From a virus: 32,791 nt of DNA. The notes under the pieces are model-generated. The model did not search any database. It was given only the letters and a program-made list of their open reading frames with translations, and had not been told where the DNA came from. Location: IMG/VR virus record IMGVR_UViG_3300043409_000518, positions 1 through 32,791 of that record; one strand, written 5' to 3'. Positions 8,299 to 27,400 of the stretch are shown here, piece after piece. The position numbers and the translations under genes were made by a program. How positions within the stretch are numbered: the stretch's first letter is position 1; every line of letters starts with the position of its first letter.

Positions 8299-8668
8299 TT
8301 TCCTAACCTCTATCAACAGCTCCAAAGAGAACCTTATGGAGAAAGAACCTCTCTGTGAAAAGGAATACATTCCTTTTGTGGTCAATAAATGCCTTTCTTA
8401 CTTTCCAGATACCATATTCTATGCCAATCAGATCAATGTTCGGTCTAGTCTGGATAAGAAAATGCAATACGATTATCTGAGACTATCTGTCTCTAAACGA
8501 AAACGATTCAGTAAATGGTTCAAAGAAGAAAAGAATGATAATATCAAGTTAATACAAGAGTATTATGGGTATTCCTATCGTAGAGCAAAGGAAGTTTTAG
8601 AGTGTCTTACTGATGATAACATAAGAACCATCAAAGATTCTCTCAAAACAGGGGGTGTAAAATCTTAA
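8285..8668 (+). CDS. 62: gp62-like clamp loader small subunit
   Basis: Non-ATPase partner of gp44 in the clamp loader. It is identified by position directly after gp44 and by features such as KCLSYFPDTIFYANQIN, a basic SVSKRKRFSKWFK segment and a helical end with RRAKEVLECL. At 127 residues it is clearly shorter than T4 gp62 (187) and seems to lack much of the T4 N-terminal part. My recollection is that cyanophage gp62 proteins are similarly short. The start is a GTG inside gp44 giving MNLSDFLTSIN; the next candidate is ATG at 8336. GTG is preferred because homologous N-termini of this kind keep the leading FL..IN residues. Confidence 0.88.
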   Translation: MNLSDFLTSINSSKENLMEKEPLCEKEYIPFVVNKCLSYFPDTIFYANQINVRSSLDKKMQYDYLRLSVSKRKRFSKWFKEEKNDNIKLIQEYYGYSYRRAKEVLECLTDDNIRTIKDSLKTGGVKS

Positions 8669-11490: not shown

Positions 11491-12201
11491 ATGAAATACG
11501 CAATAATCGAACAGGGTGGAGGACTAGGAGATATATTCTTTTTACAAAAAGCAATAGATTCTTTGTTAGCGGATGGATGGAACATTATATGGCCTGTAAG
11601 TGAGTATTTTTTATATCTTAGTGAGTATATTAAAAAAGAAAATTTAAAATTTTATTCTATGAGTGAAAAGTATCCATTTAAAGAATACTTCAATATATCT
11701 GAAAAAGAAATTAAACAAATTCAAATAAAAGAAGATATAGTATTGTATATCCCATTTGGAAGTATTCCTATGAAAGAGAAATATTTGCTTCTTAATATAC
11801 AATCTAATGGTTGGGTCGACAATTTTATATTTGACCGAAACTTAGACAGAGAAATATTATTAAAAAATAAATATAATATTAAAGATGGAGAAGAATTTAT
11901 TTATGTAAATGATTTATTTGCTTCTCCACCAAATATGATGAAACGAAATATAGTTATAAAAACAGATAAAAAAATAGTATACAACGATGGCGAATCTTGT
12001 CACATTTTCGATTATTGTTGGATATTAGAAAATGCAAAAGAATTACATCTCGTAGAATCAGCAACATGTTACCTAGTAGAAAAATTAAACACAACAGACA
12101 AACTATTCATGTATTCTAGAAAAATAAACGATAGACCCCAACATCCTGATTTTAGGTATGTGGATCATGTCTATAAAAAGAATTGGATAAGTGTATTATG
12201 A
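11491..12201 (+). CDS. GT9-like glycosyltransferase-related protein, paralogue 1
   Basis: 236 residues opening MKYAIIEQGGGLGDIFFLQK, which resembles the first strand and glycine loop of GT9 heptosyltransferases (I...GGLGD...), followed by IIWPVSEYF. It ends with a segment (FDYCWILENAKELHLVESA) where GT9 enzymes place the nucleotide-binding helix. It is short for the family (about 320-350), so it may be a reduced or non-catalytic version. It is clearly paralogous to the next gene: shared GLGDI-F, IIWP, YP-K--F, F-RNL and EKL positions. The start has no evident Shine-Dalgarno sequence. The stop overlaps the paralogue start as ATGA. Confidence 0.7.
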   Translation: MKYAIIEQGGGLGDIFFLQKAIDSLLADGWNIIWPVSEYFLYLSEYIKKENLKFYSMSEKYPFKEYFNISEKEIKQIQIKEDIVLYIPFGSIPMKEKYLLLNIQSNGWVDNFIFDRNLDREILLKNKYNIKDGEEFIYVNDLFASPPNMMKRNIVIKTDKKIVYNDGESCHIFDYCWILENAKELHLVESATCYLVEKLNTTDKLFMYSRKINDRPQHPDFRYVDHVYKKNWISVL

Positions 12202-12947
12202 GCAATTTTTGTTTAATACAACAAGAAGCAGGATTAGGGGATATTTTATTTTGTCAAAATCATGTAAAATTTTATTCGGAAAAAAATTATAAAGTTATTT
12301 GGCCAATAGTTCCTCCATTATTAAATATATGCAATCAGTTAATAACTGACGCAAAATTTTATAATGCAGAAGAAGATTATCCACTAAAATCATTTTTCGA
12401 AGAATCGTATATGCAAGGAAAAATTATAGAAAATAATAGTAATATATTTATTCCTATGAAATATGCTTCTTATATAATTCCGCCTTATATTCCAGGAAAA
12501 AAAGAAATGCAATCGAAGCATATTCTATGTGGACTAGATTATACTGTTTGGAAAACTAATTTAAATTTTCATAGAAATCTAGAAAAAGAGAATATATTAT
12601 ATTATGATATATTAAAACTAAAAGATAATGAAGATTTTATTTTAATAAATCAAACATATTCAACACAACCTACTACAATCAAAAAAGACTTGAGTCCTTT
12701 TAAATACAGATTCGGAGATTCAAAATTTATTGAAATGTCTATACTAGAAGGATTTACTATTTTCGATTGGTGTAAAGTTTTTGAAAATATGAAATCAATA
12801 ATCACAGTAGATACCTCGTTGATGTATATCATAGAAAAATTAGATCTTAAAAATAAAACAGATTTTCTGTGCATAACAAGATCACTCAACACAGAAGAAG
12901 ATATTAAAGAGTTATTTACATACCCCTGGACATATATTCATGCTTGA
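12198..12947 (+). CDS. GT9-like glycosyltransferase-related protein, paralogue 2
   Basis: 249 residues, tandem duplicate of the preceding gene. The start at 12198 (ATGA overlap) is preferred to an in-frame ATG at 12183, because it aligns the N-termini: MSNFCLIQQEAGLGDILFCQ against MKYAIIEQGGGLGDIFFLQ. Shared blocks continue through VIWPI, EDYPLKSFF, IFIPMKYAS, FHRNLEKENIL, INQTYSTQP, FDWCKVFENM and IIEKL. Whole-length similarity with only moderate identity means the duplication is old, or the copies have diverged for different donors or acceptors. No signal or membrane segment is visible. The last 8 bases overlap the next gene. Confidence 0.7.
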   Translation: MSNFCLIQQEAGLGDILFCQNHVKFYSEKNYKVIWPIVPPLLNICNQLITDAKFYNAEEDYPLKSFFEESYMQGKIIENNSNIFIPMKYASYIIPPYIPGKKEMQSKHILCGLDYTVWKTNLNFHRNLEKENILYYDILKLKDNEDFILINQTYSTQPTTIKKDLSPFKYRFGDSKFIEMSILEGFTIFDWCKVFENMKSIITVDTSLMYIIEKLDLKNKTDFLCITRSLNTEEDIKELFTYPWTYIHA

Positions 12948-13431
12948 AACACTAACATTTAATAATAAAAAATACCCAAAATTCCAAAAAGAAGGTAATG
13001 CTGCTCAATTTGCTATCCCATATGCAAAACAGGTATGTCGTGGAGAAGGAATAGACATTGGATGCAATAAAGCAGAATGGGCTTTTCCTGGAGCAAAATT
13101 AGTAGATCCTGCGATAAATGCATATGATGCTTTAAATTTTCCATACTATAATTTGGATTATATCTTTTCATCACATTGTTTAGAACACATAAATAATTGG
13201 GTTGATGTTATGGATTATTGGTATACTAAACTAAAAGTCTCTGGAGTGTTATTTTTATATTTACCAGACTATAGCCAAGAATATTGGAGACCATGGAACA
13301 ATAGAAAACATGTTAATATATTTACATCAAATATTATTGAAGATTATATGAAACACACCGGATACACTAACGTATTTGTGTCGGGAGTCGATTTAAATAA
13401 TGCCTTTATGGCTATAGGAGAAAAAAAATGA
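12940..13431 (+). CDS. SAM-dependent methyltransferase (class I, small)
   Basis: 163 residues. The cofactor loop is GIDIGCNKAEWAFPGA (motif I, E/D-x-G-x-x-x), followed by YIFSSHCLEHINNW, the usual S.H.LEH motif of Methyltransf_11-type enzymes. FLYLPDYSQEYWRPWNN corresponds to the post-V strand with the substrate-side residues. The domain is compact, with the motif I loop only about 40 residues from the start. Small methyltransferases of this kind commonly O-methylate sugars in glycan loci; the acceptor is unknown. It overlaps the previous gene by 8 bases and the next as ATGA, and carries a GGAG ribosome binding site for the next gene just before its stop. Confidence 0.8.
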   Translation: MLETLTFNNKKYPKFQKEGNAAQFAIPYAKQVCRGEGIDIGCNKAEWAFPGAKLVDPAINAYDALNFPYYNLDYIFSSHCLEHINNWVDVMDYWYTKLKVSGVLFLYLPDYSQEYWRPWNNRKHVNIFTSNIIEDYMKHTGYTNVFVSGVDLNNAFMAIGEKK

Positions 13432-14006
13432 ACGAAAATACAATACAATATTATTCACAAATAGGACAAGATAAATTTGTTTTAGATACACTAAAACATA
13501 AACGTAATGGATTTTTTGTAGATATAGGAACAGGACCACCTAGACATTTGAGTAACACTTATACACTAGAAACACAGTTTGATTGGACTGGAATTGGAAT
13601 TGATATTAAGGATGCTTCTGAGGATGAAAATATTCACAAAGATGATCCTGATTATAAAAAACTCAGGCCAAATACACATTATATAATAGAAAATGCTCTT
13701 AATATAGATTATAGTAAATTGTTTAAACAATACAATGCACCTAAAATTATAGACTATTTAACTATTGATATAGATCCTCCCGAACTTTCATTAGAATGTT
13801 TATTTTTAGTTCCAATAAATGAATATAGATTTAGTACAATAACATTCGAAACAGACGAATATAGAATGCAAGAAAATTTTGCAAACAAATCTAGAGAATA
13901 TTTGAAAAAAAATAACTACATGTTAGTCAATTCGGTCAACAGACAAGATGATTTCTATATTAGCTATGAATTATATACCGAACTAACAGGGAAATCTCCA
14001 TGTTGA
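13428..14006 (+). CDS. FkbM-like methyltransferase
   Basis: 192 residues. YYSQIGQDKFVLDTLKHKRNG then FFVDIGTGPPRHLSNT is the FkbM-type opening (SQ.GQD.F....K..G.FVDIGA..G...SNT). The middle TGIGIDIKD holds the acidic residue that contacts the ribose. Later, IDYLTIDIDPPELSLE and STITFETDEY match the family's LS.D.EG.E and .i..E motifs, and REYLKKNNYMLVN is the usual end. FkbM proteins methylate hydroxyls on sugars and related compounds. The usual small residue of the DIGA.dG loop is changed to GPP here, a variation worth noting. It starts inside the stop of the previous gene (ATGA) and overlaps the next by 7 bases. Confidence 0.82.
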   Translation: MNENTIQYYSQIGQDKFVLDTLKHKRNGFFVDIGTGPPRHLSNTYTLETQFDWTGIGIDIKDASEDENIHKDDPDYKKLRPNTHYIIENALNIDYSKLFKQYNAPKIIDYLTIDIDPPELSLECLFLVPINEYRFSTITFETDEYRMQENFANKSREYLKKNNYMLVNSVNRQDDFYISYELYTELTGKSPC

Positions 14007-14746
14007 ATTTAAAAAACATAACCCTTTTAGCTATAAATGGTCACGAAACCAATTTAAATACACCTAAAGCTTTAAAATATAGTTGTAATAATATCAAATT
14101 TGGTTCAGTTAAATATTTAACAGCAAATGATGATAAATTGAATTTTTGTGAAACCATTAAAATACCCAAAATGTCATACGAAGAATATAATGCACTTTGT
14201 TTAAGTAAATTACACGAATACGTCGAAACTGATTTTATTTTAATAATTCAAGATGATGGGTTTTTGATAAATCCAGAATCCTGGTCAGATTCATTTTTAT
14301 CCTATGATTACATAGGAGCACCGTGGGATAAAACTAGATTATATTATAATCTAGAAATAAAAGAAAAAGAATGGATGATGGGAACATCATATACTGATAT
14401 TCTAAAAAACACAAATACATCTTTTAATATAGGAAATGGTGGGTTTTCTTTACGATCAAAAAAATTATTAATAGAGACCTCTAAACTCTATATTACTAGA
14501 TATGGTAAGTGTTGCGAAGATTCGATAATATCAATCATTATGAGAGAAGATCTAGAAAAAGAAAAAATTAGATTTCCAGAAAATGATAAAATTGCGGCTT
14601 CATTTTCGTGTGAAACTAAATCAGTCAATGGTAATTTTTTTAGTTCAGACAATTCTCTAGGATTTCATTGTAGAGATACCCATAAAGATAAAATAGATTT
14701 ATTAAATTCTATCGAGTTTTCTGAGTTAATTGAAAGTAATATATGA
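14000..14746 (+). CDS. DUF5672-type glycosyltransferase-like protein
   Basis: 248 residues. Supporting motifs are an N-terminal ITLLAINGH strand, the conserved YNALCLSKLHEYVETDFILIIQDDGF (family pattern YN.f....L......tdf.L..Q.DG), SFLSYDYIGAPW, and FNIGNGGFSLRSKKLL, a hallmark of DUF5672. CCEDSIIS (an acidic residue where the acceptor-activating base would sit) follows, and ENDKIAASFSCE then GFHC close the domain. Members are predicted GT-A transferases found in polysaccharide loci and in viruses. It is probably soluble. The stop overlaps the epimerase start as ATGA. Confidence 0.8.
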   Translation: MLNLKNITLLAINGHETNLNTPKALKYSCNNIKFGSVKYLTANDDKLNFCETIKIPKMSYEEYNALCLSKLHEYVETDFILIIQDDGFLINPESWSDSFLSYDYIGAPWDKTRLYYNLEIKEKEWMMGTSYTDILKNTNTSFNIGNGGFSLRSKKLLIETSKLYITRYGKCCEDSIISIIMREDLEKEKIRFPENDKIAASFSCETKSVNGNFFSSDNSLGFHCRDTHKDKIDLLNSIEFSELIESNI

Positions 14747-15744
14747 ATATTTTAATAACAGGTGTTGCAGGTCTTATAGGTTCACATTTTGCTGATTGGA
14801 TAATAGAAAACAATAAAGCAAATGTTTATGGTATAGATAATCTTTCTGGTGGATATATAGAAAATATAAATCCTAAAGTTAACTTTTATAATTATGATCT
14901 AACAAATAGTTTACATATTGAACAATTATTTCGAGATCATCGATTTGATTATGTTTTCCATTTTGGTGCTTATGCTGCAGAGGGATTAAGTCCGTTTATT
15001 AGACAATTTAATTATGAAAATAATTTAATTGCAACAACAAGATTAATCAACCTTAGTATCAAATATAATATTAAACGATTTATATTTACCTCTACTATGG
15101 CAGTTTACGGAAAATCAAAAGTGCCATTTATAGAAAGTTATAAACCAGAACCAATCGATCCATATGGAATAGCAAAATATGCATGTGAAATGGATCTTTG
15201 TGTTGCAGGAGAACAACATGGTCTAGATTGGTGTATTTTTAGACCTCATAATGTTTATGGACCAAAACAAAACATCTGGGACAAATACAGAAACGTTTTA
15301 GGTATTTGGATGTATCAACATCTTAATGGGAAACCAATGAGTATTTTTGGTGACGGAGAACAAACTAGAGCATTTAGTTATATTACGGATTGTGTTCCTT
15401 ATTTTTGGTCAGGTGCTATAGAACAAAAGGCATCAAAAGAAATATTCAATATAGGAGGAGATGATCACATATCGATAAATGTTGCTTCAGATTTATTAAT
15501 AGATATTATAGGAAGTGGGACTAAAGAATACCACCAACAACGACACGAAGTAAAAGACGCATGGGTCTCTCATAATAAAATTAAAAATATTCTTAATTAT
15601 AAACAATGTACTCGTATGAGGGATGGACTTACCGATATGTGGAAATGGGCGAAATCTCAACCAATAAGAGAACAGAAACTTTGGGAAGAATTTGAATTAG
15701 ATAAAGGTCTTTACAATTATTGGAAAATAAAGGAAACATTATGA
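14743..15744 (+). CDS. NAD-dependent sugar epimerase/dehydratase (GalE-like)
   Basis: Extended short-chain dehydrogenase acting on nucleotide sugars. The 333 residues have the dinucleotide loop TGVAGLIGSH (about 6-15), IDNLSGG as in UDP-glucose 4-epimerases, YVFHFGAYAA, the catalytic Thr/Ser in FTSTMAVYG, and the YxxxK pair in DPYGIAKYACE. RPHNVYGPKQ and FGDGEQTRAFSYITD follow, both typical of GalE/WbpP-like enzymes. All catalytic residues seem intact. The likely reaction is 4-epimerisation of a UDP-hexose, with substrate not determinable. A second, quite different epimerase is encoded at 18214. The start overlaps the DUF5672 gene as ATGA. Confidence 0.88.
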   Translation: MNILITGVAGLIGSHFADWIIENNKANVYGIDNLSGGYIENINPKVNFYNYDLTNSLHIEQLFRDHRFDYVFHFGAYAAEGLSPFIRQFNYENNLIATTRLINLSIKYNIKRFIFTSTMAVYGKSKVPFIESYKPEPIDPYGIAKYACEMDLCVAGEQHGLDWCIFRPHNVYGPKQNIWDKYRNVLGIWMYQHLNGKPMSIFGDGEQTRAFSYITDCVPYFWSGAIEQKASKEIFNIGGDDHISINVASDLLIDIIGSGTKEYHQQRHEVKDAWVSHNKIKNILNYKQCTRMRDGLTDMWKWAKSQPIREQKLWEEFELDKGLYNYWKIKETL

Positions 15745-16400
15745 TAGAACTGAGAGATAAACTAATATCAAACAATATGACAATGGTCACAGAAGAAAGA
15801 TTTGATTTATTCATGAAATATAAAAATGATATTGACAAATTAGATGGAGATATTGTAGAATGTGGTGTTTGGCGAGGAGGTATGAGTATATTTTTGGCAA
15901 AATGTTTTAATGATAAACAGATTTGGGTGTGTGATTCTTTTGAGGGATGTCAAGATCCACAAAAAGGAAAATATGAATATTTAGCGGAAACTCATACCCA
16001 AGGATTATATGCAATAAATATACAAGAAGTTAAAACTAATTTTATAAACTATGGTTTTGTAGTAAACGATCCTAGGATTAAATTTCTAAAAGGATTTGTT
16101 AAGGATACCCTAGATCCTTCTATTTGTGAGATTTCTAAAATATCAATTCTTCGTATTGATGTTGATGCATATTCTGCAACGATGGAAGTATTGGATGCAT
16201 TATACGATAAAGTAGAACCAGGAGGATATATTATTTTTGATGATTCTTGTCTATCTACTTGTCATTCTGCGATGAAAATATTTTTCGAACGTATTGGCAA
16301 ATCTACAGTAATAGAACCAAATACATATACGACACTTAGTGTTTATTCTAATACATTACCGTGTGGATGTTTTATACAGAAAGAAGGGAATAGCATATGA
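15741..16400 (+). CDS. TylF/macrocin O-methyltransferase-like protein
   Basis: 219 residues from the ATG at 15741, chosen over an in-frame ATG at 15720 because it forms the ATGA overlap seen throughout this operon and has the ribosome binding site AAAGGAA upstream. The TylF family pattern is clear: GDIVECGVWRGGMSIFLAK (motif I E.GV.RGG.s.fmA), WVCDSFEGCQDP (family DSF.G.P), FLKGFVKDTLD, then ILRIDVDAYSATMEVLDALYDKVEPGGYIIFDDS, with the metal-binding Asp residues of the D.D.Y..t...L motif. These enzymes methylate sugar hydroxyls in a metal-dependent way. Its presence fits O-methylation of the island's glycan. Confidence 0.9.
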   Translation: MIELRDKLISNNMTMVTEERFDLFMKYKNDIDKLDGDIVECGVWRGGMSIFLAKCFNDKQIWVCDSFEGCQDPQKGKYEYLAETHTQGLYAINIQEVKTNFINYGFVVNDPRIKFLKGFVKDTLDPSICEISKISILRIDVDAYSATMEVLDALYDKVEPGGYIIFDDSCLSTCHSAMKIFFERIGKSTVIEPNTYTTLSVYSNTLPCGCFIQKEGNSI

Positions 16401-16969
16401 TGAGTATTTTTGAAAATGAATATGTAAAAATGGATATCTGTCATGCCCAAACTATTGGAGGATTGATTGTTTCACAAAAACCTACAAATATACTAGAGTT
16501 GGGTGTGGGTGGAGGAAGATCTACAGATCATATTTTAGCTAGTATTGCATTTAATGAAAATACTCCTAAATATACATTAGTAGATAATTGGTGTGATTTT
16601 GGTGGAAATATACCAAACGAAATAATTATTAAATATTCAAATATTATTAATATAATAACAGCAAACGAAAAAGATTTTATATTCTCAACTAAAGAAAAAT
16701 ATGATTTTATAGTTTCAGATGCAGACCATCACCATACAAATGAATGGTTTGAATATGTTTATGATAATTTATTATCATCAGACGGAATTTTAATATATCA
16801 TGATATTAATATACATAATATCGATGATGCCTTTCCAAATTTATTAGAAATATTAAATTTATGTAAAACGAAAAACATACATCATAAATTATTCAACAGA
16901 TCAACAAAAGAAAACGAAAGATGTCACAGAGGACTGTTAGTGATATTTAAACACAAAGAGATACTATGA
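16397..16969 (+). CDS. Class I SAM methyltransferase (Methyltransf_24-like)
   Basis: 190 residues. ILELGVGGGRSTDHILA is a textbook motif I, with an acidic TLVDNW at the end of strand 2. DFIVSDADHHHTNEWFEYVY corresponds to the family's IDg.H.ye....D motif with its metal/substrate His, and GILIYHDINIHNIDDAF to G..i.hD. It is probably an O-methyltransferase. The start could be either of two adjacent ATGs (16397 or 16400); the first overlaps the previous stop as ATGA. The closest relative in the window is the C-terminal half of the next gene, which has a similar DTDHTF and FHDTN pair, suggesting local duplication and fusion. Confidence 0.82.
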   Translation: MMSIFENEYVKMDICHAQTIGGLIVSQKPTNILELGVGGGRSTDHILASIAFNENTPKYTLVDNWCDFGGNIPNEIIIKYSNIINIITANEKDFIFSTKEKYDFIVSDADHHHTNEWFEYVYDNLLSSDGILIYHDINIHNIDDAFPNLLEILNLCKTKNIHHKLFNRSTKENERCHRGLLVIFKHKEIL

Positions 16970-18162
16970 AAACAAAAATAATAACGGCATATACTGAAAA
17001 TTTTAGTGAAATTTCTGATTTATCATATTCTGGTATAAAACAATATGGTGAAAAGCATAGCATACCGACTGAAAGATTTTTATTATCCACTACTATAGAT
17101 AGACCTCCCTCTTGGTATAAGATTGAATTGGTATTACAAGAATTTAAAAAAGGATATGATTGTGTTATGTGGGTTGATGCAGATACCATGGTTGTTAATT
17201 TCAATCATGATTTTTTTAGTATGTTAAATGACACACATAATATATTTTTATCAGAAGACACTAATGGCATCAATATGGGTGTTGTTGTTTGGAAAAATAC
17301 ACCAGAAGTTGTTGAAATTTTAAATAAAATTTGGTCCATGAAGGAATTTATAAATCATACTTGGTGGGAACAGGGGGCATTTAGAAACTTATATGACTCT
17401 AATTGGAAAGATATAAAAAATATAGTACAATTTATTCCACAAAATATATTAAACGCATATGACTATGGGTCATACGGACTTCCACCACATCCCGAAGGCG
17501 AGATAAATCCCAAATCTTTTATAGCACATTTTCCTGGATGGAATAAAGATTCTAATCATATACGTATCCGTTTGATGAAAAAGTATATCAACACAGATCA
17601 TTGCAACCAACACATAGTAGAAACACAATTTTTAAAAGAAATATCAATTCCGAGTGATATTAATGAACATATGTTAACGTTACAGAAATATGCAAAAGAG
17701 TGTGATCATATAACAGAAATGGGCGTTAGATGGGTAGTATCAACATATGCATTTTCAACAAGTAAACCAAAAACGTTAATATCTATCGATATAATTGATC
17801 CTAGAAAACCACACAATGAAATTGGAAACCAATGGAGTCAAGGAGGGAAAAGATTAGAAGATATAATAGAATACTGTAAGTTATCTAATATAGAATTTCA
17901 TTTTATAGAAGGAGATACTACTAAAATATCAATAAACGAAACAGATTTATTGTTTATAGATACTGACCACACATTTAATCAACTGCAAATGGAATTAAAA
18001 TTACACGGCAATAAAGCAAAAAAATACATAATATTTCATGATACTAACATGGAGGAGTTATGGAATGCTATAACAGAATTTTTACAAATCAATAAACATT
18101 GGAGTGTTGACACAAAATTTGATAATAATAATGGGTTAACGATTCTAAAAAGAATAATTTGA
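16966..18162 (+). CDS. Bifunctional GT34-like glycosyltransferase plus methyltransferase
   Basis: 398 residues in two parts. Residues about 1-205 look like a GT34 (GMA12/MNN10-like) transferase: KIITAYTENF strand, SYSGIKQYGEKHSI, SWYKIELVLQEFKKGYDCVMWVDADTMVV (DxD at about 70-72), INMGVVVWKNTP, WWEQGAFRNL and a FIAHFPGW end. Residues about 225-398 form a class I methyltransferase: ITEMGVRWVVST, SIDIIDPRK, FHFIEGDTTKI, LLFIDTDHTFNQLQMEL and YIIFHDTNMEELW. A fusion suggests a sugar is added and then methylated by one protein. The stop lies within the -35 region of the next promoter. This closes the run of overlapping genes that begins at 11491. Confidence 0.83.
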   Translation: MKTKIITAYTENFSEISDLSYSGIKQYGEKHSIPTERFLLSTTIDRPPSWYKIELVLQEFKKGYDCVMWVDADTMVVNFNHDFFSMLNDTHNIFLSEDTNGINMGVVVWKNTPEVVEILNKIWSMKEFINHTWWEQGAFRNLYDSNWKDIKNIVQFIPQNILNAYDYGSYGLPPHPEGEINPKSFIAHFPGWNKDSNHIRIRLMKKYINTDHCNQHIVETQFLKEISIPSDINEHMLTLQKYAKECDHITEMGVRWVVSTYAFSTSKPKTLISIDIIDPRKPHNEIGNQWSQGGKRLEDIIEYCKLSNIEFHFIEGDTTKISINETDLLFIDTDHTFNQLQMELKLHGNKAKKYIIFHDTNMEELWNAITEFLQINKHWSVDTKFDNNNGLTILKRII

Positions 18163-18187
18163 CTTTGACATCTAGTGTAGATATACT
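18159..18187 (+). promoter_or_regulatory. sigma70-like promoter before GDP-mannose epimerase homologue
   Basis: A -35 TTGACT (18159-18164), a 17-base spacer and a -10 TATACT (18182-18187). The ATG is at 18214, giving a leader of about 20 bases that contains a good ribosome binding site (GAAAGGAAA, 18200-18207). This promoter is conventional, unlike the three leaderless ones in the window. Confidence 0.6.
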
Positions 18188-18213
18188 ACGAAACTCCTGA
18201 AAGGAAATTTATT

Positions 18214-19248
18214 ATGAAAAAAACAGCATTAGTATTGGGTGGCGGCGGATTTATCGGTTCTCATTTAGTTAAACGATTAAAATTAGAAGGGTATTGGGTT
18301 CGTGTTGTTGATCTTAAACATCCTGAATTTTCACCAACACACGCTGATGATTTTATTATTGGTGATCTAAGACAACAATCTATATGTGATGATGCATTTA
18401 AATTATTTTTCGATATGCATTTTGACGAAGCATATCAATTAGCAGCAGACATGGGTGGTGCAGGATATATCTTTACTGGAGAACACGACGCAGATATAAT
18501 GCATAATTCTGCACTTATTAACTTAAATATAGCAGAACGATGCCTGAAACACAAAGTAGGTAAAGTATTCTATTCATCTTCGGCATGCATGTATCCTGCA
18601 TACAATCAAGAAGATCCAAATAATCCAAAATGTTCGGAAGATTCTGCATATCCTGCAGCACCAGATAGTGAGTATGGATGGGAAAAGTTGTTCAGTGAAA
18701 GATTATTCTTAGCATTTGCAAGAAATTATGGTATGAATGTTCGTATTGCTCGTTATCATAATATATTTGGACCAGAAGGAACATGGGAAGGTGGAAAGGA
18801 AAAGGCACCAGCTGCTATGTGTCGTAAAGTATCGCAAGCAGAAAATAACACTTCCATAGAGGTGTGGGGCGACGGACAACAAACTCGTTCTTTTCTGTAT
18901 ATCGACGAATGTATAGAAGCAACTAGACGACTTATGAATTCATATTTTACTGGTCCTGTTAATATTGGTTCTGAAGAGATGATCAAAATTAATGATCTAG
19001 CATCAATGGTTATTGATATAGCAAGGAAAGAACTAACTGTTAATAATATATCTGGACCTGTAGGAGTCCGTGGTCGTAATTCTGACAATAAACTATATCT
19101 AAAAAATATTGGATGGGAACCTTCGCAATCATTACAAGAAGGAATGGAGAAAACATATTCTTGGATCAATGGAATAATTCGTAGTAAAAATAAACAAGAA
19201 CATTTATCTGTTGCAGATTTAGATATGAGAGATAGATTTAACTCTTAA
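18214..19248 (+). CDS. GDP-mannose 3,5-epimerase-like protein
   Basis: 344 residues of extended SDR fold with the dinucleotide loop LGGGGFIGSH (8-17). It follows plant GDP-mannose 3,5-epimerase (GME) closely: LAADMGGAGYI, YSSSACMYPAYNQ (catalytic Ser and Cys), YGWEKLFSERL (YxxxK), YHNIFGPEGTWEGGKEKAPA, WGDGQQTRSFLYIDEC, NIGSEEM and GPVGVRGRNSDN. In plants GME converts GDP-D-mannose to GDP-L-galactose (with GDP-L-gulose as side product). The SACMYP Cys and the second Lys in GGKEKAPA, both used for C3/C5 epimerisation, are present. It has its own promoter and a strong ribosome binding site, unlike the coupled genes before it. It likely supplies a GDP-L-sugar for the island's transferases, such as the GT10-like enzyme. 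Confidence 0.9.
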   Translation: MKKTALVLGGGGFIGSHLVKRLKLEGYWVRVVDLKHPEFSPTHADDFIIGDLRQQSICDDAFKLFFDMHFDEAYQLAADMGGAGYIFTGEHDADIMHNSALINLNIAERCLKHKVGKVFYSSSACMYPAYNQEDPNNPKCSEDSAYPAAPDSEYGWEKLFSERLFLAFARNYGMNVRIARYHNIFGPEGTWEGGKEKAPAAMCRKVSQAENNTSIEVWGDGQQTRSFLYIDECIEATRRLMNSYFTGPVNIGSEEMIKINDLASMVIDIARKELTVNNISGPVGVRGRNSDNKLYLKNIGWEPSQSLQEGMEKTYSWINGIIRSKNKQEHLSVADLDMRDRFNS

Positions 19249-19282
19249 TTAAAAATCAAAACAACCAACATAGGTATAATAT

Positions 19283-19951
19283 ATGAAATTTAAAGTTTAT
19301 TTTAAAACCTCTAAAGGATTTGGAAAAAATAGTATTCCTGGATTTAATAATTACAAATGTTTACAGTCATTATTACAATCATTTTCTAAAGAAGAAATTT
19401 TTATAAATTTGGATAATGGAACAGAAGAGCAAAAAAACTATTTTCTAGAAAATAATTTTAATTTTGCAGAAACACAATTAGGAAACTGTTCAGTGGTTAG
19501 ACACCAATTAAATCTAGCATTAAAGAGTGATGCAGATATTTTCTATTTTGTAGAACACGACCATTTTCATTTAAATAAACAAAAAGAATATTTGTGTGAT
19601 GGTCTATCTCTTTTCGATATAATATCTCTATACGACCATCCTGATAAATATTCAATATCAGTATATCCAGATTTATGTGCAAAGTTGTATATGGGGAAAC
19701 TGTGCCACTGGAGAAATACTCCTTCTACTGTTGTAACATTTGCATGTAAAAAAGAAACACTTTACAAAATAAAAGATATTATTTTTGATGACAGATTTAC
19801 TGGTCCACATTTGAGAGCAACAGAAGATCATTCTATGTTTTTAGAAATGTGGAAAAATAATATTTCTATAGGAACTCCCATTCCAGGAAGATCGACTCAT
19901 TTAGAACTTTCTGATATTTCTCCATACGTCGATTGGATTTCACTTAAATAG
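19283..19951 (+). CDS. Putative glycosyltransferase, GT-A-like
   Basis: 222 residues. The N-terminus (KFKVYFKTSKGFGKNSIPGFNNYKC) leads to an EIFINLDNGTEE strand. The pair IFYFVEHDHFHLN is in the position of a DxD-like metal motif (ExDH here). PSTVVTFACKKETL and GPHLRATEDHSMFLEMW, with an acidic ED, resemble the acceptor-side motif of GT-A enzymes. GRSTHLELSDISPYVDW closes the protein. I cannot place it in a named family, so the call rests on this layout and the context. A weak TAGG ribosome binding site precedes the ATG. Two late-promoter-like boxes for the next gene overlap its end. Confidence 0.6.
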   Translation: MKFKVYFKTSKGFGKNSIPGFNNYKCLQSLLQSFSKEEIFINLDNGTEEQKNYFLENNFNFAETQLGNCSVVRHQLNLALKSDADIFYFVEHDHFHLNKQKEYLCDGLSLFDIISLYDHPDKYSISVYPDLCAKLYMGKLCHWRNTPSTVVTFACKKETLYKIKDIIFDDRFTGPHLRATEDHSMFLEMWKNNISIGTPIPGRSTHLELSDISPYVDWISLK

Positions 19952-19960
19952 TTATAAATA
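19943..19960 (+). promoter_or_regulatory. Tandem late-promoter-like boxes CTTAAATA and TATAAATA
   Basis: CTTAAATA (19943-19950) and the exact T4 late consensus TATAAATA (19953-19960) precede the ATG at 19965. By T4 spacing the second would start RNA at about 19966, essentially at the start codon, and the first at about 19956. No Shine-Dalgarno sequence is visible in either case. Confidence 0.5.
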
Positions 19961-19964
19961 CAAT

Positions 19965-21179
19965 ATGAAACCAACAATTACACTATGCATGATCGTGAAG
20001 AATGAATCGCATGTCATTCTTGAATGTCTAAACTCAGTCTACAAGCACCTAGATTACTGGGTAATATCTGACACGGGTTCTACAGACAACACTAAAGAAC
20101 TTATTACAAATTTCTTCAAGGAAAAGAATATTCCTGGAGAGTTCGCTGATCTTGAATGGAAGTCATTCGGACATAATAGATCTTATGTTCTTAATGCCTG
20201 TAAAGGTAAGGCAGATTATCTCTGGGTCATTGATGCAGACGATTATCTGGAAGGTGAAATTATACTTCCAGAAAATACAATTGCCGACGCATTTACTCTG
20301 AGAATTGGTAAAGGACCTGATTTCACGTGGTGGAGAAATCAGATATTTAAGGTAGATGCAGAATGGCATTATGTTGGTGTGTTGCATGAATACGCTGCAA
20401 CAAACAAACCAAATCCACAAATATATAAATTAGATGGAAATTATAAAGTAAATGCCAGAACAACTGGTGCGAGAAATGTTGGTATATCGGGTATTGAGAA
20501 ATACTCAAAGGATGCTAAAACACTTGAGCTTGCACTTATTGACGAACCAGATAATGCACGATATTGGTTTTATCTTGCACAATCATATTTTGATTCTCAA
20601 CAATTTGCAAAGTCAGAAGAAGCATATGCAAAGAGAGTTTCTTATGGTGGTTGGCCGGAAGAAGTATATTATTCTCTATATCGTATTGCTATTGCTAAAG
20701 CACTACAAGAAAAACCATGGCATGAGATTAAAGATGCATTTCTTGCCGCATATAATTTTAGACCATCAAGAGCAGAACCTTTGTTTCATATTGCACAGAT
20801 ATATCGTATGAAAATGAATATGCCGGCAATTGCATATATTTACATAAAGATGGCTGCTGATATTCCGTATCCAAAAGATGATATTTTGTTTATTCCAGAT
20901 CAATTGTATAATTTTGGTATTTTAGATGAACTGGCATCTGTTGCATTTTATGCAGGTCGTCCAGATGTTGGATATATGGCAACTAAGACTCTATTAGAAC
21001 AAAATAGAGCTCCAGAATCTGAGATTCCTAGAATACAACAAAATTTCGAAAAATATAAAGAAGTCATGCAGAATCTGCAGGCACAGACTCAACACCCCCC
21101 ACAACAAAAAAATCAAGTCAACCTAGAGAAAACTCCAGAGAAGTCTAAAACATATAAGAGACGAAAAGTGCATAGTTAA
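19965..21179 (+). CDS. GT2 glycosyltransferase with TPR-like C-terminal region
   Basis: 404 residues. The N-terminal GT2 domain (about 1-170) shows ITLCMIVKNES, WVISDTGSTDNTKELI (the nucleotide-binding Asp), FGHNRSYVLNACKGKADYLWVIDADDYLEG (DAD) and WHYVGVLHEY. The central part is a run of helical repeats resembling TPRs: DNARYWFYLAQSYFDSQQF, then PEEVYYSLYRIAIAKALQE and RAEPLFHIAQIYR. The last 40 residues are Gln/Lys/Pro-rich, basic and probably disordered. GT2 plus TPR proteins of this design occur in tailed phages and giant viruses; TPRs may dock a protein acceptor or a partner transferase. Codon use changes within the gene, with AAG/CTT-rich codons in the first 350 bases and AAA-rich after that. 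Confidence 0.85.
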   Translation: MKPTITLCMIVKNESHVILECLNSVYKHLDYWVISDTGSTDNTKELITNFFKEKNIPGEFADLEWKSFGHNRSYVLNACKGKADYLWVIDADDYLEGEIILPENTIADAFTLRIGKGPDFTWWRNQIFKVDAEWHYVGVLHEYAATNKPNPQIYKLDGNYKVNARTTGARNVGISGIEKYSKDAKTLELALIDEPDNARYWFYLAQSYFDSQQFAKSEEAYAKRVSYGGWPEEVYYSLYRIAIAKALQEKPWHEIKDAFLAAYNFRPSRAEPLFHIAQIYRMKMNMPAIAYIYIKMAADIPYPKDDILFIPDQLYNFGILDELASVAFYAGRPDVGYMATKTLLEQNRAPESEIPRIQQNFEKYKEVMQNLQAQTQHPPQQKNQVNLEKTPEKSKTYKRRKVHS

Positions 21180-21222: not shown

Positions 21223-21726
21223 ATGTCTGCACAATACGATCTTATATTAAATAGAAACGAAAATTTCACCCTATATCTAGAATATCAGGACGAGAGTGGC
21301 GCTCGTATAGATCTGGTCGGTAATACCGCATCAGATCCCCTTTATTATGCAAAGATGATGATTAAACCGTATAAGAAGGATACTCAAGCGGTAGTTCTTC
21401 TTAAATCGGATCCGTTTGAGGTTCTATGTGGAACCACACAGGCGGGTATAAGTGGTGGTATTAAATTAAATAGAAATTTTGGAAATACTGGTGGATATAC
21501 TGGTGGTATTTTTATTACAGTAAATCCATTAGTAACAATGACTATGTCTCCTGGAAAATCATTTTATGATATTTTTCTTGTAGGAAGAACTGGCGATATT
21601 AAAGGATTTTCTACTAAATTACTTGAAGGATCTGTGGATGTTGTTCAAGAGATAACCACAAACATTGAAGATCAATTTAGAGCTTTCTCGTTTGATGATG
21701 AAATTGACGGGGGAGCATTCACGTGA
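21223..21726 (+). CDS. Virion-associated protein of the fibre block
   Basis: 167 residues starting MSAQYDLILNRNENFTLYLEYQDESGARIDL, a pattern common near the start of phage tail or baseplate-associated proteins in T4-like aquatic phages. A beta-rich middle (GGIKLNRNFGNTGGYTGGIFITVNP and SFYDIFLVGRTGDIKGF) fits a small sandwich domain. The end, FDDEIDGGAFT, carries the D-G-G-x-F tail shared by other products of this block. The final codons GACGGGGGAGCA provide the ribosome binding site for the next small gene. No signal peptide is seen. The structural role is inferred from position and style rather than a named family. Confidence 0.7.
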   Translation: MSAQYDLILNRNENFTLYLEYQDESGARIDLVGNTASDPLYYAKMMIKPYKKDTQAVVLLKSDPFEVLCGTTQAGISGGIKLNRNFGNTGGYTGGIFITVNPLVTMTMSPGKSFYDIFLVGRTGDIKGFSTKLLEGSVDVVQEITTNIEDQFRAFSFDDEIDGGAFT

Positions 21727-21848
21727 AAAAAATTAAACTTATCCTTAGTAAGATTATAATTAAAAATGTCAGTATAATAAATGAATCTGGTAAAAAGATT
21801 AAAATAACTTTACAAAAAACAAACACAGAATATAAAATATATTCATAA
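21723..21848 (+). CDS. Small basic hypothetical protein (41 aa)
   Basis: A GTG start at 21723 overlaps the previous TGA (GTGA) and sits 7 bases after a very strong ribosome binding site (GGGGGAG, 21709-21715). The 41-residue product (KKIKLILSKIIIKNVSII, then a basic KKIKITLQK, ending EYKIYS) is basic and beta-prone, with no recognisable domain and no shared C-terminal tail. Its TAA overlaps an ATG (TAATG at 21846-21850). Without it, 135 bases between two fibre genes would be unexplained. Confidence 0.55.
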   Translation: MKKIKLILSKIIIKNVSIINESGKKIKITLQKTNTEYKIYS

Positions 21849-21860
21849 TGTTGAAATTCA

Positions 21861-22097
21861 ATGTGCTTTCCATTAAACCCACAACTAGGAACCACTGCAG
21901 ATTGTTTGAATTTGTCATGGACCTATGACGGATATGGTTGGGTTCGTGTTAAAAATATTATACCTGGCGGTTTTACTATATTAGGTTCATTGATTGTTGA
22001 TGGTGAAATTGTATCTAAGACTAAATTTTCTGGATTTACGGGTAATGCTATAACAGAACCAGTAGATAATATAAATCTCGATGGTGGAGAATTTTAA
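21861..22097 (+). CDS. Small fibre-block protein with D-G-G-E-F tail
   Basis: 78 residues. The second half, TILGSLIVDGEIVSKTKFSG then ITEPVDNINLDGGEF, closely parallels the C-terminus of the collagen-like fibre at 22098 ([30 protein letters not shown]), so the two share an ancestor. The N-terminal part has a phage-fibre-like LSWTYDGYGWVRVKN. An in-frame TGA at 21852-21854 limits the start to 21861. There is no good ribosome binding site; a +1-frame ATG at 21848 opens a 26-codon frame running over this start, so either coupling or an old frameshift is possible. The last codons contain GGTGGAGA, the ribosome binding site for the next gene. Confidence 0.65.
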   Translation: MCFPLNPQLGTTADCLNLSWTYDGYGWVRVKNIIPGGFTILGSLIVDGEIVSKTKFSGFTGNAITEPVDNINLDGGEF

Positions 22098-22841
22098 TTG
22101 TCTATTCTAATACGAGTTAAAAGATCTGATGTTTCTGGAATTGTGCCAAGCATTTTAATGCACGGTGAACTTGCAATAAACATTCCAGATGGTAAGCTTT
22201 GGATAGGTGGTCCGAATAATCTTCCAGTATCTATTCCAATTACAGGACCAACTGGGCCTCAAGGAATTCAGGGTATTCAAGGTAATCAGGGAATTCAAGG
22301 CGTTATTGGTCCTACTGGATCTCAAGGTGTTCAAGGAGTTCAAGGCATTCAAGGCGTTCAAGGCGTTATTGGCCCTACTGGAATCCAAGGAATTCAAGGT
22401 GTCATTGGTCTCATAGGTCCTACTGGTGCCGATAGTACTGTTCAAGGCCCTATAGGAAATACAGGACCTACTGGGCCTCAAGGCATTCAGGGTATTCAGG
22501 GTAATCAAGGAATTCAAGGTGTCGTTGGTCCTATTGGATCTCAAGGAATTCAAGGTGTCACTGGCCCCACAGGCCCTACTGGAATTCAAGGCATTATTGG
22601 ACCTACTGGCAATATTAATGTATCTGCTGGTCCAGGAATAACCATATCAAATAGTGTAATAGGTATAGATACTGTGGCTGGTGTAACTTTTACAGGTCCT
22701 ATCAGAGGATCTGATATATATTTAACTGGAGATCTTATTGTTACTGGTCGAATAGTGACTTCTACAGGTGTTTTTGGTGTAACGGCAAACGATATAACAG
22801 AACCAGTAGATAATATGAATATGGACGGTGGCGAGTTTTAA
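22098..22841 (+). CDS. Collagen-like tail fibre protein
   Basis: 247 residues. The TTG start at 22098 directly follows the previous stop and is supported by the GGAG ribosome binding site at 22086-22089. It also aligns the N-terminus with two later fibre genes: ILIRVKRSD...[20 protein letters not shown], a short head domain probably used for attachment. About 40 Gly-X-Y triplets follow ([19 protein letters not shown] and variants) with one interruption near GADSTVQGP. The tract should form a collagen-type triple helix without hydroxyproline. The C-terminal part ([35 protein letters not shown]) is a beta-rich trimerisation-like segment ending in [10 protein letters not shown]. Confidence 0.88.
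22245..22610 (+). repeat. Collagen-type Gly-X-Y tandem repeat tract
   Basis: Nine- and 18-base units built on GGNATTCAAGG repeat through this stretch. A block encoding [19 protein letters not shown] occurs twice (from 22245 and again near 22467). The repetition also keeps spurious frames open on both strands. Tract length is likely to vary between relatives by slippage or recombination. Confidence 0.9.
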
Positions 22842-22846
22842 AATCT

Positions 22847-22854
22847 TATAAATA
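22847..22854 (+). promoter_or_regulatory. Late-promoter box TATAAATA before second fibre gene
   Basis: Exact match to the T4 late consensus. The expected start near 22860 is followed by a strong AGGAG ribosome binding site (22860-22864) and the ATG at 22873. This is the cleanest late-promoter arrangement in the window. Confidence 0.65.
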
Positions 22855-22872
22855 CTAACAGGAGACCCCACC

Positions 22873-24213
22873 ATGGCATCTAAGATTACGATCAAACGTT
22901 CACTCACTGCAGCTGCACCCGCCGGCCTTTCTTTTGGAGAACTGGCATTTGTTCAAGGATCTGGACTAACTGCAAATCAGCTCTATGTTGGTATTTCTGG
23001 TGGAAGTCCAGTATGGGTTGGTGCACAAATTAGCACCACTGGAACATGGACAGATAACGCTGCAAAAACTTCTCTTGCAACACAATACGCAATCGATCAG
23101 CGTATCGCATTATTTAGTGGTCTCACATCAGGAGGACCTTTGGGAACTCCTTCTTCTGGTACGCTAACTAATTGTACAAATCTTCCTGTTAGTACTGGTA
23201 TTTCTGGTTTGGGCACAAATGTTGCTGCTTTCCTTGCTACTCCTTCTAGTGCAAATCTTGCATCAGCACTTACTGATGAAACAGGATCTAGTGTTGTTGT
23301 ATTTGGAACCAGTCCTGCCATCACTACAAGTCTGACCACCCCGAGTACTAGTTTTGATTTATTAAATACTACTGCAACCACTGTTAATTTTGCAGGTGGT
23401 GCATCAAGTGCACTTAATATAGGTAATGTCGGCGGTACTGCGACATTTGCAGGTTCTGTTATAGTAAACGGCGATTTCACAGTTCAAGGAAATACCACAA
23501 CCTTGAATACAACAACCCTTAATGTTGAAGACTTCAACATAACAATGGGTCTTACATTAACTAGTGCTTCTCAATGTACTGGTGCTGGTATTGGAATTGG
23601 TGTAGGAACTGGAATAACCTTTGCATATGATCATAGTTCACTTGGATGGTTGTCTTCAGTTAATATGGATCTTGCTAGTGGAAAAGTCTTTAAAATTGCT
23701 AATGCGTCTGTTCTTAGTGCAACCACACTTGGAAGTGCTGTTGTTACTTCTTCTCTGACAACTGTAGGTATTATTACAAGTGGTACATGGAGTGGATCAT
23801 TCGGTGCGGTGAGTGGTGCGAATCTTACTAATCTTACTGCTGGAAATCTAAGTGGAACTATTCCATCAGGAGTATTAGCAAATTCTACAGTCAATATTGG
23901 AACTACTGCTGTAGCGTTAAATCGCGCAAGTGCATCTCTTGCTTTAACAGGAATAAGTATTGATGGTAATGCAGGAACTGCTACAACAGCAACAACCGCA
24001 GGAACAGTCACAACTGCAGCGCAACCTAACATCACAAGTGTTGGAACACTTTCTGCATTGACTGTATCTGCAACTATTACAGGCAGCGTTAGTGGAAGTG
24101 CAGCCACAGTTACAGGTGCAGCGCAATCTGCGATCACAAGTGTTGGAACTTTGACTTCTCTTACTGTTTCGGGAACACTCGAAGCAGGATTAATCGACGC
24201 TGGAACTTTCTAA
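22873..24213 (+). CDS. Repetitive tail fibre protein
   Basis: 446 residues. The head SKITIKRSL...PAGLSFGELAFVQG...QLYVGISGG is the same domain as in the fibres at 22098 and 24455. The shaft is rich in Thr, Ser, Gly and Ala with repeats typical of phage long fibres: LTNCTNLPVSTGISGLG, TSSLTTVGIITSGTWSG (a unit found in many fibres), NLTNLTAGNLSGTIPSGVLANSTVNIG, and twin TSVGTLSALTVS / TSVGTLTSLTVSG motifs near the end. It closes with LIDAGTF, a version of the block's C-terminal tail. The start is supported by AGGAG and by the head-domain alignment. A probable trimer, with the C-terminus short and lacking an obvious receptor-binding knob. Confidence 0.88.
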   Translation: MASKITIKRSLTAAAPAGLSFGELAFVQGSGLTANQLYVGISGGSPVWVGAQISTTGTWTDNAAKTSLATQYAIDQRIALFSGLTSGGPLGTPSSGTLTNCTNLPVSTGISGLGTNVAAFLATPSSANLASALTDETGSSVVVFGTSPAITTSLTTPSTSFDLLNTTATTVNFAGGASSALNIGNVGGTATFAGSVIVNGDFTVQGNTTTLNTTTLNVEDFNITMGLTLTSASQCTGAGIGIGVGTGITFAYDHSSLGWLSSVNMDLASGKVFKIANASVLSATTLGSAVVTSSLTTVGIITSGTWSGSFGAVSGANLTNLTAGNLSGTIPSGVLANSTVNIGTTAVALNRASASLALTGISIDGNAGTATTATTAGTVTTAAQPNITSVGTLSALTVSATITGSVSGSAATVTGAAQSAITSVGTLTSLTVSGTLEAGLIDAGTF

Positions 24214-24229
24214 AAAAGGAATTTGATAT

Positions 24230-24436
24230 ATGAGTGAACCTAATTATAATGAGTCTATTGTTATACCTTTGCTTCAAAATAAGTTCAGAGAATTAACTAA
24301 TTCTAATCTGGTATTAGAGGCGAATTTATTAATTGAAAGAGCAAAACTTGCAGATCTGACAGAAAAATATACTACACTATTTAATAAACACGAAAAGAAG
24401 AAAAAAGGTGAAAAGTTGGACGGAGAATCCTTCTAA
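24230..24436 (+). CDS. Small coiled-coil protein of the fibre block (68 aa)
   Basis: 68 residues: MSEPNYNESIVIPLLQNKF, then a heptad-like stretch (LTNSNLVLEANLLIERAKLADLTEKY) that should form a coiled coil, a basic KHEKKKKGEK segment and the tail LDGESF. An AAAAGGAA ribosome binding site precedes the ATG. The size, coiled coil and position between two fibre genes suggest a fibre chaperone or connector. The D-G-x-x-F tail, shared with the virion-like neighbours, argues that it joins the same assembly. Confidence 0.75.
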   Translation: MSEPNYNESIVIPLLQNKFRELTNSNLVLEANLLIERAKLADLTEKYTTLFNKHEKKKKGEKLDGESF

Positions 24437-24439
24437 ATA
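24432..24439 (+). promoter_or_regulatory. Late-promoter-like box TCTAAATA before giant fibre gene
   Basis: One base off TATAAATA and overlapping the stop of the 68-aa gene. It would start RNA near 24445, followed by a weak TAGAG ribosome binding site and the ATG at 24455. Confidence 0.4.
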
Positions 24440-24454
24440 GTGTAGAGTTATATT

Positions 24455-27400
24455 ATGGCAACACAAGTAAAAATTAAACGAGGAACGACTAACGCGAACG
24501 CACCGACTGGTTTGACTGCTGGTGAAATGGCAATCAATCTAGTTGATAAAAAATTGTATGTTGGTGGAACTGCTGGCACAAATGTTATATTTTTAGATTC
24601 CACGTCTGCTGTGGGATTAGGTACTGCAAACACCTTTACGGCACTTCAATCATTCTCTGCGGGTATTTCTGCAAGTGGTGCAACATTCTCTAGTGATATT
24701 ACTGTATCTTCTATGACTGTTGGTCGTGGAAATCGAGAAAATGCAGCCCAAGGAAATATTGCCATAGGATCGAATGCACTTAAAGCTGCCGATAACGGCG
24801 GCGATAATATCGCTATAGGAGATAGTGCTCTCTTTGGAAATCTTAATGGAAACAACAATGTCGCTGTGGGAAATAATACTCTTTACTTGACTGGAGTAGA
24901 TCCGGGTGGCCACAACAATGTTGGCGTTGGATTTGGTGTTCTTTATTCAAACAATGCAGGATCTAATATAACTGCAATTGGAGCATCGGCAGGATCATAT
25001 TTGGGAACTGGAACAAGTGCTCTAACACCTGGAAATGGTGGAATTTATGTTGGATATCAAGCAAGAGGAAGTGCTAATACACAAACAAATGAAATAGTGA
25101 TAGGTGTTAATGCTCTAGGACTTGGATCAAATACTGCTGTGATTGGTGCTACACTACAAAGTGCTGCGACTATTTACGGTCTATTAAATCTACCAAGTGG
25201 ATTAAGTACAACTGGTGCAACATTTACTGGATCGATTAGTGGAGCAACAGCAACTTTCTCTAAAGATATTACGGTAAATTCTATAACGGTTGGTCGTGGT
25301 AGTGGTGGTTTTGATTCAAATGTCGCAGTGGGAAACTATGCTTTCAACTTAAATAGTAGTGGCGAAAATACTGTCGCCTTAGGATCAAATGCTCTCCAAT
25401 CAAATACCACAGGAAACGAAAATACTGCCGTGGGAGGAGCTGCTCTCCAAGCAAATACCACAGGAAATCTCAATGTTGGCGTAGGAGAATATGCTCTTAG
25501 CACAAACACTATAGGATCTAACAAAACTGCAATTGGATCCCGTGCAGGATCATACAGAGGAACAGAAACAAGTGCTCTAACAACAGGAACTGGTGGAATC
25601 TATATTGGATATCAGGCAAGAGGAAGTACACTTGCACAAACAAATGAAATAGTTATTGGTGTTGATGCACTAGGACTTGGATCAAATACTGCTGTCATTG
25701 GTGCTACCCTACAAAGTGCTGCGACTATTTACGGTGTATTGAATCTACCAAGCGGATTGAGTGCTTCGGGTGCAACCTTTAGCGGTAATATATCAGCACC
25801 AAATATTGTTACTGTGAGTACTGCAAACACCTTTACTGCACTTCAATCATTCTCTGCGGGTATTTCTGCTTCTGCTCTCACAGTTTCTGGAACTATTACA
25901 TCAACTCAAGGAATAACTTTTGGATCAGGCACTACATTCATGGCGTTTGTGCCAAAGACCGCTGCTAATGATGGTGGATTGTGGTTGCGAGATGGATTGT
26001 TTCAGGTTGGTGGAGCAGTACTTGCACAAAATAATGGTAGTTTGCAGTACAATATGAACTCGGAACGGTTTGCTGTATATGGATATCAGGTAATTGATAA
26101 CGCCGCACCGTATCAAGGTACTGCCACTCCATTAACTGTAAAAGGTGGAACAGGACAAAGTGTTCCTTTGTTTAATGTAACACGAGGAGGAACAAGTGCA
26201 GTTCAAGTGCATCAAGACGGATATCTTGCAATTCCTGTAAACACCTCTCCTGCTATAAAAATAGGAAATCATGCTAGTAGAAATCTAACACTAGGATCTA
26301 TTAATGGAGCAGCAGAAATAGTACAAACTGGTAATTCCAATTCAACATTAAATATAAGACAAGAAAATGGTGGTCCAGTATCCATCGGCGATTCTGTTGG
26401 TGCAAACAACGGCACTTATATTGATGTGACTGATGCAGACGCTGTTATTTCATTAAATGCTGGTGAAATACAAATAAATGGTCCTATTTCAACTCCTCTA
26501 ACTCTAGCAAACGCAGAAAATATTCAAAATACGGTAAATGGTCGTATTGATTTTATGCCAGGTCCAACAGCGGCGAGTGCATACGGATTGTATGCCGATT
26601 TCACAGGTTGGGGATATGGTGTGCAGATGGGAACTATTAATAGTGCAGGAACATTAGACAGTTCTCCTGGTGGAATTCTGCTTAATGATAACATAACTAT
26701 ACTGCAAGACAAATTTTTAAGTTTGGATAGTGATGGAACTCATGCACTAGTAAAGACAAGCACGGGGTTAGATACACTACAAATTGCAGTTTCTTCTGGA
26801 GTAGGAAATTCCAATGCTGTTGCAATAGTGGGAAACAGGTATGTTGCCGCAGGAACTGCCAACCGTTCTCCTGTTACATCACACACAAATCCGAACTTAT
26901 ATATTTATCGTGCAGGTATAACAAGCGCAAACGACTTTATCCGCATAGAACATGACGGCACAAACGGCAATATTGTTGCGGGTGGAACGAGTGGAATTAA
27001 AATTTCTGGACTATTAGATGTAGCAAGCGGACTGATTGCATCGGGTGCAACCTTTAGTGGAGATATTACGGTAAATTCTGTGACGGTTGGTCGTGGTGGT
27101 GGTGGGGATTATAGGAATACCGCCGTGGGAAAAGATGCTCTCTTAGAAAACACAGGAATCGGAAATGTCGGGATGGGAACATATGCTCTCGGTGCAAACA
27201 CATCAGGATCTAACAAAACTGCAATTGGATATGCTGCAGGATACTACAGAGGAAGTGGTGGAGTATCAACTCTAACAACAGGAACTGGTGGAATCTATAT
27301 TGGATATCAGGCAAGAGGAAGTGCTGATACACAAACAAATGAAATAGTGATTGGTGTTGATGCTCTAGGACTTGGATCAAATACTGCTGTGATTGGTGCT

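Follow-up and report, generated by a model that had tools for sequence, protein, structure and literature searches.

The virus record IMGVR_UViG_3300043409_000518 is a 32.8-kb fragment from an uncultivated virus, and all of its 32,791 nucleotides constitute the window analysed here. Replication genes of the gp46, gp47, gp45, and gp44 types place it among the T4-like phages, with Kyanoviridae nearest. Five proteins of a fibre gene block in this window (Table 1) end in similar short peptides, herein the tag: DGGAFT, DGGEF, DGGEF, DAGTF, and DGESF for the genes starting at 21223, 21861, 22098, 22873, and 24230, respectively. The collagen-repeat, shaft, and giant fibres of the same block (22098, 22873, and 24455) have in common an N-terminal domain of ∼50 residues, herein KIKR.

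Table 1. Fibre block features in window coordinates (aa, amino acids; ORF, open reading frame)
Feature	Position	Strand	Evidence
T5 p132/LtfC-type collar protein (phrog_1084), 167 aa, with extra 21-residue tagged C-terminal tail	21223..21726	+	family alignment, profile, Foldseek
Tag DGGAFT	21706..21723	+	sequence
41-aa ORF, GTG start, untagged, between collar and adaptor	21723..21848	+	
78-aa tagged protein without KIKR domain, in adaptor position	21861..22097	+	
37-residue C-terminal module with tag at its end; copy at 22728-22838	21984..22094	+	BLASTP
Tag LDGGEF	22077..22094	+	sequence
247-aa collagen-repeat fibre, TTG start, N-terminal KIKR and tag	22098..22841	+	collagen Pfam match, KIKR match
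KIKR (gp37-N/Mtd_N-like) N-terminal domain, proposed socket	22098..22241	+	
Tag MDGGEF	22821..22838	+	sequence
446-aa shaft fibre, N-terminal KIKR and tag	22873..24213	+	
KIKR N-terminal domain of shaft fibre, proposed socket	22873..23031	+	
Tag IDAGTF	24193..24210	+	sequence
68-aa coiled-coil protein, basic linker, variant tag	24230..24436	+	24 relatives
Variant tag LDGESF, second G absent	24416..24433	+	sequence
1439-aa giant fibre, N-terminal KIKR, untagged, proposed distal terminal segment	24455..28774	+	
KIKR N-terminal domain of giant fibre, proposed socket for 22873 tag	24455..24613	+	

The C-terminal tag and its conservation

An initial annotation had described the five tails as nearly identical ends on unrelated bodies. 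The C termini are as it gave them, and four fit D-x-G-x-F; that of the 68-residue protein (DGESF) is a variant without the second glycine. The bodies are not all unrelated, however: the 78-residue protein and the collagen fibre end in a common 37-residue module (65% identity, E = 4e-13; BLASTP), and three proteins of the block start with KIKR. The giant fibre and the 41-residue ORF do lack the tag, as the annotation stated. As another ORF of 41 residues with the same C terminus (KTNTEYKIYS) occupies the same place in the related locus L124, the 41-residue ORF is probably a real small gene.

The tag ends 5 of the 237 window ORFs of at least 30 residues, all five in one block, against 0.08 expected among the window proteins from the internal rate of D[GA]xx[FYW] (P ∼ 1e-8). 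The tag ends 51 of the 2549 proteins encoded by 20 related genomes or contigs, compared with 4.7 expected, and matches to the motif peak sharply at the extreme C terminus. Its C-terminal rate is far above background, which speaks against the refuting condition given in the initial annotation, an equal frequency on the C termini of unrelated phage proteins. The consensus is [ILVM]-[DNE]-x-G-x-[FYW], followed by one or two residues at most. As text, the motif was not found in the open-licence literature, a limited scope that gives no proof of its being undescribed.

Conservation acts on the protein rather than on DNA or ribosome sites, since codon use varies freely: 131 DGGTF tags are encoded by 87 distinct 15-mers, codons are mixed at every tag position, and the five window tags use differing codons. 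An embedded ribosome binding site or a recombination sequence would find support in the preference for GGA at the second glycine, but the share of GGA is alike whether the next start is near (28/54) or far (61/106). Such a DNA- or RNA-level cause has next to no probability in our estimate, and the ribosome-site and DNA-module ideas were dropped, refuted as a full explanation by the codon data.

A search with the 68-residue protein returned 24 viral loci, where several proteins of the fibre block again end in the motif; in surveys of whole contigs, nearly all of its occurrences lie within the fibre block. Among isolates, the tag is found in P-SSM2, P-HM2, Melnitz, DSL-LC02, DSL-LC03, P-HM1, MED4-213, S-8S55 (VDGGTF and a variant, DCGSY), and Pelagibacter phage Mosig (NAGAF and DGGSF). 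In P-SSM2, DSL-LC02, DSL-LC03, and Melnitz the block closely precedes the gp13 neck gene; in P-HM2 and the Synechococcus phages it comes after a VrlC-like baseplate gene. In T4 this position is occupied by genes 11, 12, and wac. The tagged pair was not found in S-PM2, P-SSM7, Bellamy, or HTVC008M. Of the loci picked by fibre-shaft or gp46 similarity, S-RIM44 and two metagenomic loci were untagged in the stretches examined, as was the first stretch of Melnitz, which has its tags elsewhere in the genome. Direct tblastn searches with the 167-, 78-, and 68-residue proteins gave no match in isolate phages, related-locus searches with the first two found none, and a DNA pattern for ITEPVDN hit 20 contigs, none with a tagged ORF.

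IMG/VR contigs were scanned without bias for DNA that fits [FLIMV]-DGGTF-stop. Of the 117 seeds at ORF ends, 60 are accompanied by another tagged ORF on the same strand and 52 by one that abuts; control motifs, permuted or substituted, gave 1 to 14 and 0 to 6, respectively. An EGGTF control contained real E-variants, so permuted motifs were taken as controls instead. Homology between partners is detectable in only 1 of the 52 abutting pairs, and typically an adaptor of 50 to 140 residues is followed by a fibre of 300 to 800.

Several variations on this arrangement were seen. In one clade (L379, L383, L420, L435, L437, L452, and L462) the adaptor tag is VVEGGTF, with E for D, and the fibre tag LDGG[SNH]Y; in L123 and L125, tagged ORFs (4698-5126 and 8183-8590) carry a tandem double tag, ..IDGGEFSLDGGTF, at the C terminus of a single protein. 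Two tagged fibre blocks lie apart on each of the contigs G006 (11654-13336 and 22286-26712) and G010, and every block has a coiled coil of its own.

KIKR domains and their tagged neighbours

A KIKR profile finds exactly two domains in each of nine tag-bearing isolate genomes and no match in S-RIM44, S-PM2, Bellamy, or HTVC008M; elsewhere it gives one weak match in P-SSM7 and one match in T4. In the set selected by the tag, a KIKR gene comes next after 177 of 269 tagged genes, compared with 31 of 4280 untagged genes. Loci were also collected independently of the tag, either with only the giant-fibre KIKR sequence as query or, earlier, by shaft similarity. With the coiled-coil gene skipped, the preceding gene is tagged for 22 of the 25 KIKR genes in KIKR-selected loci and for all 4 in shaft-selected ones (26/29 together). 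Of the three exceptions among the 25, one ends in IDGGIY plus a short extension and another follows a tagged collar gene with a 41-residue ORF between.

The numbers of tags and N-terminal KIKR domains, tallied with collar and coil tags left out, are equal in the window (3/3), in contigs G001, G003, G004, and G009 (2/2), G005 and G007 (3/3), and G008 (4/4), and in the isolates P-HM2, P-SSM2, and Melnitz (2/2). In DSL-LC03 adaptor and fibre are fused, and a tag remnant (..NEIDGQVN) immediately precedes PTIKIKR.

The profile, built with the window domains included, matches the N terminus of T4 gp37 (E = 3.3e-11). T4 gp36, whose gene lies directly upstream, ends in VQDFGYY, and its counterparts in six other Straboviridae end in IDFGEF, LDYGSF, LDYGTY, IDFGSY, IDFGTY, and QDFGTY; a D-[FY]-G-x-[FY] end is thus found in 7/7, and in T4 gp36 is the sole gene product with an end of this form. 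The gp36 trimer is known to attach to gp37 in its N-terminal region (PMC3004832). By the gp37 match, the tag-like gp36 end, and the binding of the two proteins, tag and KIKR are the counterparts of the two halves of an established joint.

We consider it likely that fibre segments are joined in series by a multiplied version of the gp36-gp37 joint, in which the tag acts as plug and KIKR as socket. The C-terminal peptide of one fibre segment would plug into the N-terminal KIKR domain of the next, a socket of the gp37 N-domain type that resembles Mtd_N. In the window, plugs would be provided by the 78-residue adaptor, the collagen fibre, and the shaft fibre, and sockets by the collagen, shaft, and giant fibres, giving a probable order of adaptor, collagen fibre, shaft fibre, and giant distal fibre; being the receptor end, the last would carry a socket but lack a plug. 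The p132-type collar at the start of the block, here with a plug of its own that it has gained, would anchor the chain to the tail. This proposal draws on the tag statistics, the protein-level conservation, the tag-KIKR adjacency, the matching numbers, the homology of KIKR to the gp37 N terminus, the resemblance of the gp36 end to the tag, and a single natural fusion; from these we infer the physical tag-KIKR contact, the trimer state, the sequence of segments along the fibre, and what the collar and coil tags do. The docking tag for a common assembly partner envisaged in the initial annotation is thereby retained as a docking peptide, but its likely partner is a repeated domain at the front of the next fibres rather than one assembly protein.

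Collar, coiled coil, and other roles for the tag

The family of the 167-residue protein occurs in 58 of 113 tagged loci, and in 50 of these its gene immediately precedes the first tagged one (many contigs are cut). Its members end at a conserved ..VTR, beyond which those of the window and L124 have, in the alignment, 21 extra residues with the tag. The family profile matches T5 p132 (E = 4.6e-9) and DT57C LtfC (E = 3.2e-8), and a Foldseek search with the predicted structure has T5 p132 and DT57C as top matches, with the immunoglobulin-like fold of the family; the protein is a T5 p132-type collar that gained a tag. In T5 and DT57C this type of protein forms a dodecameric collar that anchors the lateral fibres (PMC10038345, PMC10713586). 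The coiled-coil family is present in 55 of the 113 loci, mostly immediately after a tagged fibre; its tag is the variant DG[DEQNS][TSV][FY], absent from many isolates. Coils without the tag (L331, L283, L383, and DSL-LC02) often end in acidic residues plus one F (QEDFT, GDFE, DFKEE, and PEDFS), which could be an eroded or alternative tag. The coil might act in capping or as a chaperone.

If the coil were a chaperone like gp57A, it could recognize the tag and help several fibres to trimerize, with joints not concerned; an assembly-chaperone signal was among the options of the initial annotation. The coil gene does come right after a tagged fibre in most loci, often has a variant tag itself, and encodes a small coiled-coil protein, by which size and character alone it is likened to T4 gp57A (79 residues; PMC3004832). 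We hold this to be unlikely: the tag is kept in phages whose coil is untagged (P-SSM2 and DSL-LC02), the giant fibre, being untagged, would not be served by the chaperone, and both the adjacency to KIKR and the gp36/gp37 match would go unexplained. Somewhat less probable still is docking of the tag on the collar, in the manner of the N-terminal strands of T5 and DT57C lateral fibres. It would fit the position of the p132-like gene, which in 50 of the 58 loci that have it stands immediately before the first tagged gene, as well as the binding of fibre strands to p132/LtfC by sheet augmentation (PMC10713586). Yet the untagged phages Bellamy and HTVC008M have p132-like proteins, the DT57C fibre binds by its N terminus rather than its C terminus, and the window collar carries a tag itself; moreover, in the AlphaFold model of a natural in-frame collar-adaptor read-through from L277, the collar is confident (predicted local distance difference test score of 97) and the tag unordered. 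A clasp that merely closes the C-terminal end of each trimer, offered in the initial annotation and in keeping with the short beta-rich modules before the tagged ends of adaptors and fibres, appears very improbable because the tag sits also on the basic, probably flexible tail of the coiled coil and on the added tail of the collar; in addition, the terminal fibre is untagged, and the tag is predicted by neighbouring genes.

Several observations weigh against the plug-and-socket joint. The numbers of tags and KIKR domains are unequal in G002 (3/2) and in G006 and G010 (3/4), and collar and coil tags exceed the sockets by one or two, the collar tag being one beyond the socket number in the window and G007. 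In P-SSM2 and DSL-LC03 the distal KIKR protein is encoded elsewhere in the genome and has no tagged neighbour, and F, Y, and W do not covary between the two tags of a genome (P = 0.28). Operon history alone could account for the gene adjacency, and the P values overstate independence, as many of the sequences analysed are kin. The tag-KIKR contact is seen in no structure, and the tag is poorly ordered in AlphaFold monomers, which is expected with the partner absent yet lends no support.

Two further features of the locus were recorded. Directly upstream of the block lies a long series of sugar-epimerase, glycosyltransferase, and methyltransferase-like genes (11491-21179), and the giant fibre contains several head-repeat-like copies of N.AIG..AL or AVG..AL between long shaft segments.

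Significance and comparison with known systems

Fibres determine which bacteria a phage infects, yet for most environmental phages neither the components of a fibre nor their arrangement is known, and the genes carry hypothetical annotations. If the proposed joint is correct, the number and order of fibre segments could be read from sequence, from T4 to the marine and freshwater T4-like phages; it would also offer a testable explanation for the exchange of fibre modules and, for the gp36-gp37 contact of T4, which is poorly resolved, a candidate at the sequence level. A broader version, which we put forward tentatively and think rather less likely than not to hold in full, is a general code in which any tag-ended protein joins any KIKR-starting one, the decoy tag of the coil caps sockets until assembly, and the joints need not be remodelled when a segment is added, lost, or exchanged.

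Among known systems, the T5 p132 and DT57C LtfC collars belong to the family of the block's first protein by profile and fold; T5 p132 is without the extra tagged tail of the window and L124 members, and in DT57C it is N-terminal fibre strands that bind the collar. Mtd_N, the Pfam domain of the major tropism determinant, is matched by 5 of 26 KIKR domains (E up to 0.1, best 3.5e-9), with the window domain under the curated cut-off (18.2 vs. 26.3 bits), and no tag partner is described for Mtd. The C-terminal tip of the bacterial single-stranded DNA-binding protein is likewise a short acidic end with a terminal aromatic residue that docks in partners, in a different system and with unrelated sequence.

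Another close parallel is the T4 gp36-gp37 joint, for which the binding order is known. None of the tagged window proteins matches a gp36 family in PHROG and Pfam scans, and by these scans the upstream body is not a gp36 homologue. The ends are alike: the upstream partner closes with [ILVQ]-D-[FY]-G-x-[FY] in T4, and four of the five window tags fit D-x-G-x-aromatic, although G or A takes the second place, where gp36 has F or Y. In both systems a KIKR domain starts the downstream partner and the partner genes are adjacent. T4 has one such joint, whereas two to four tagged proteins plus sockets are found per phage here, on bodies that vary widely and may include a collar and a coiled coil.

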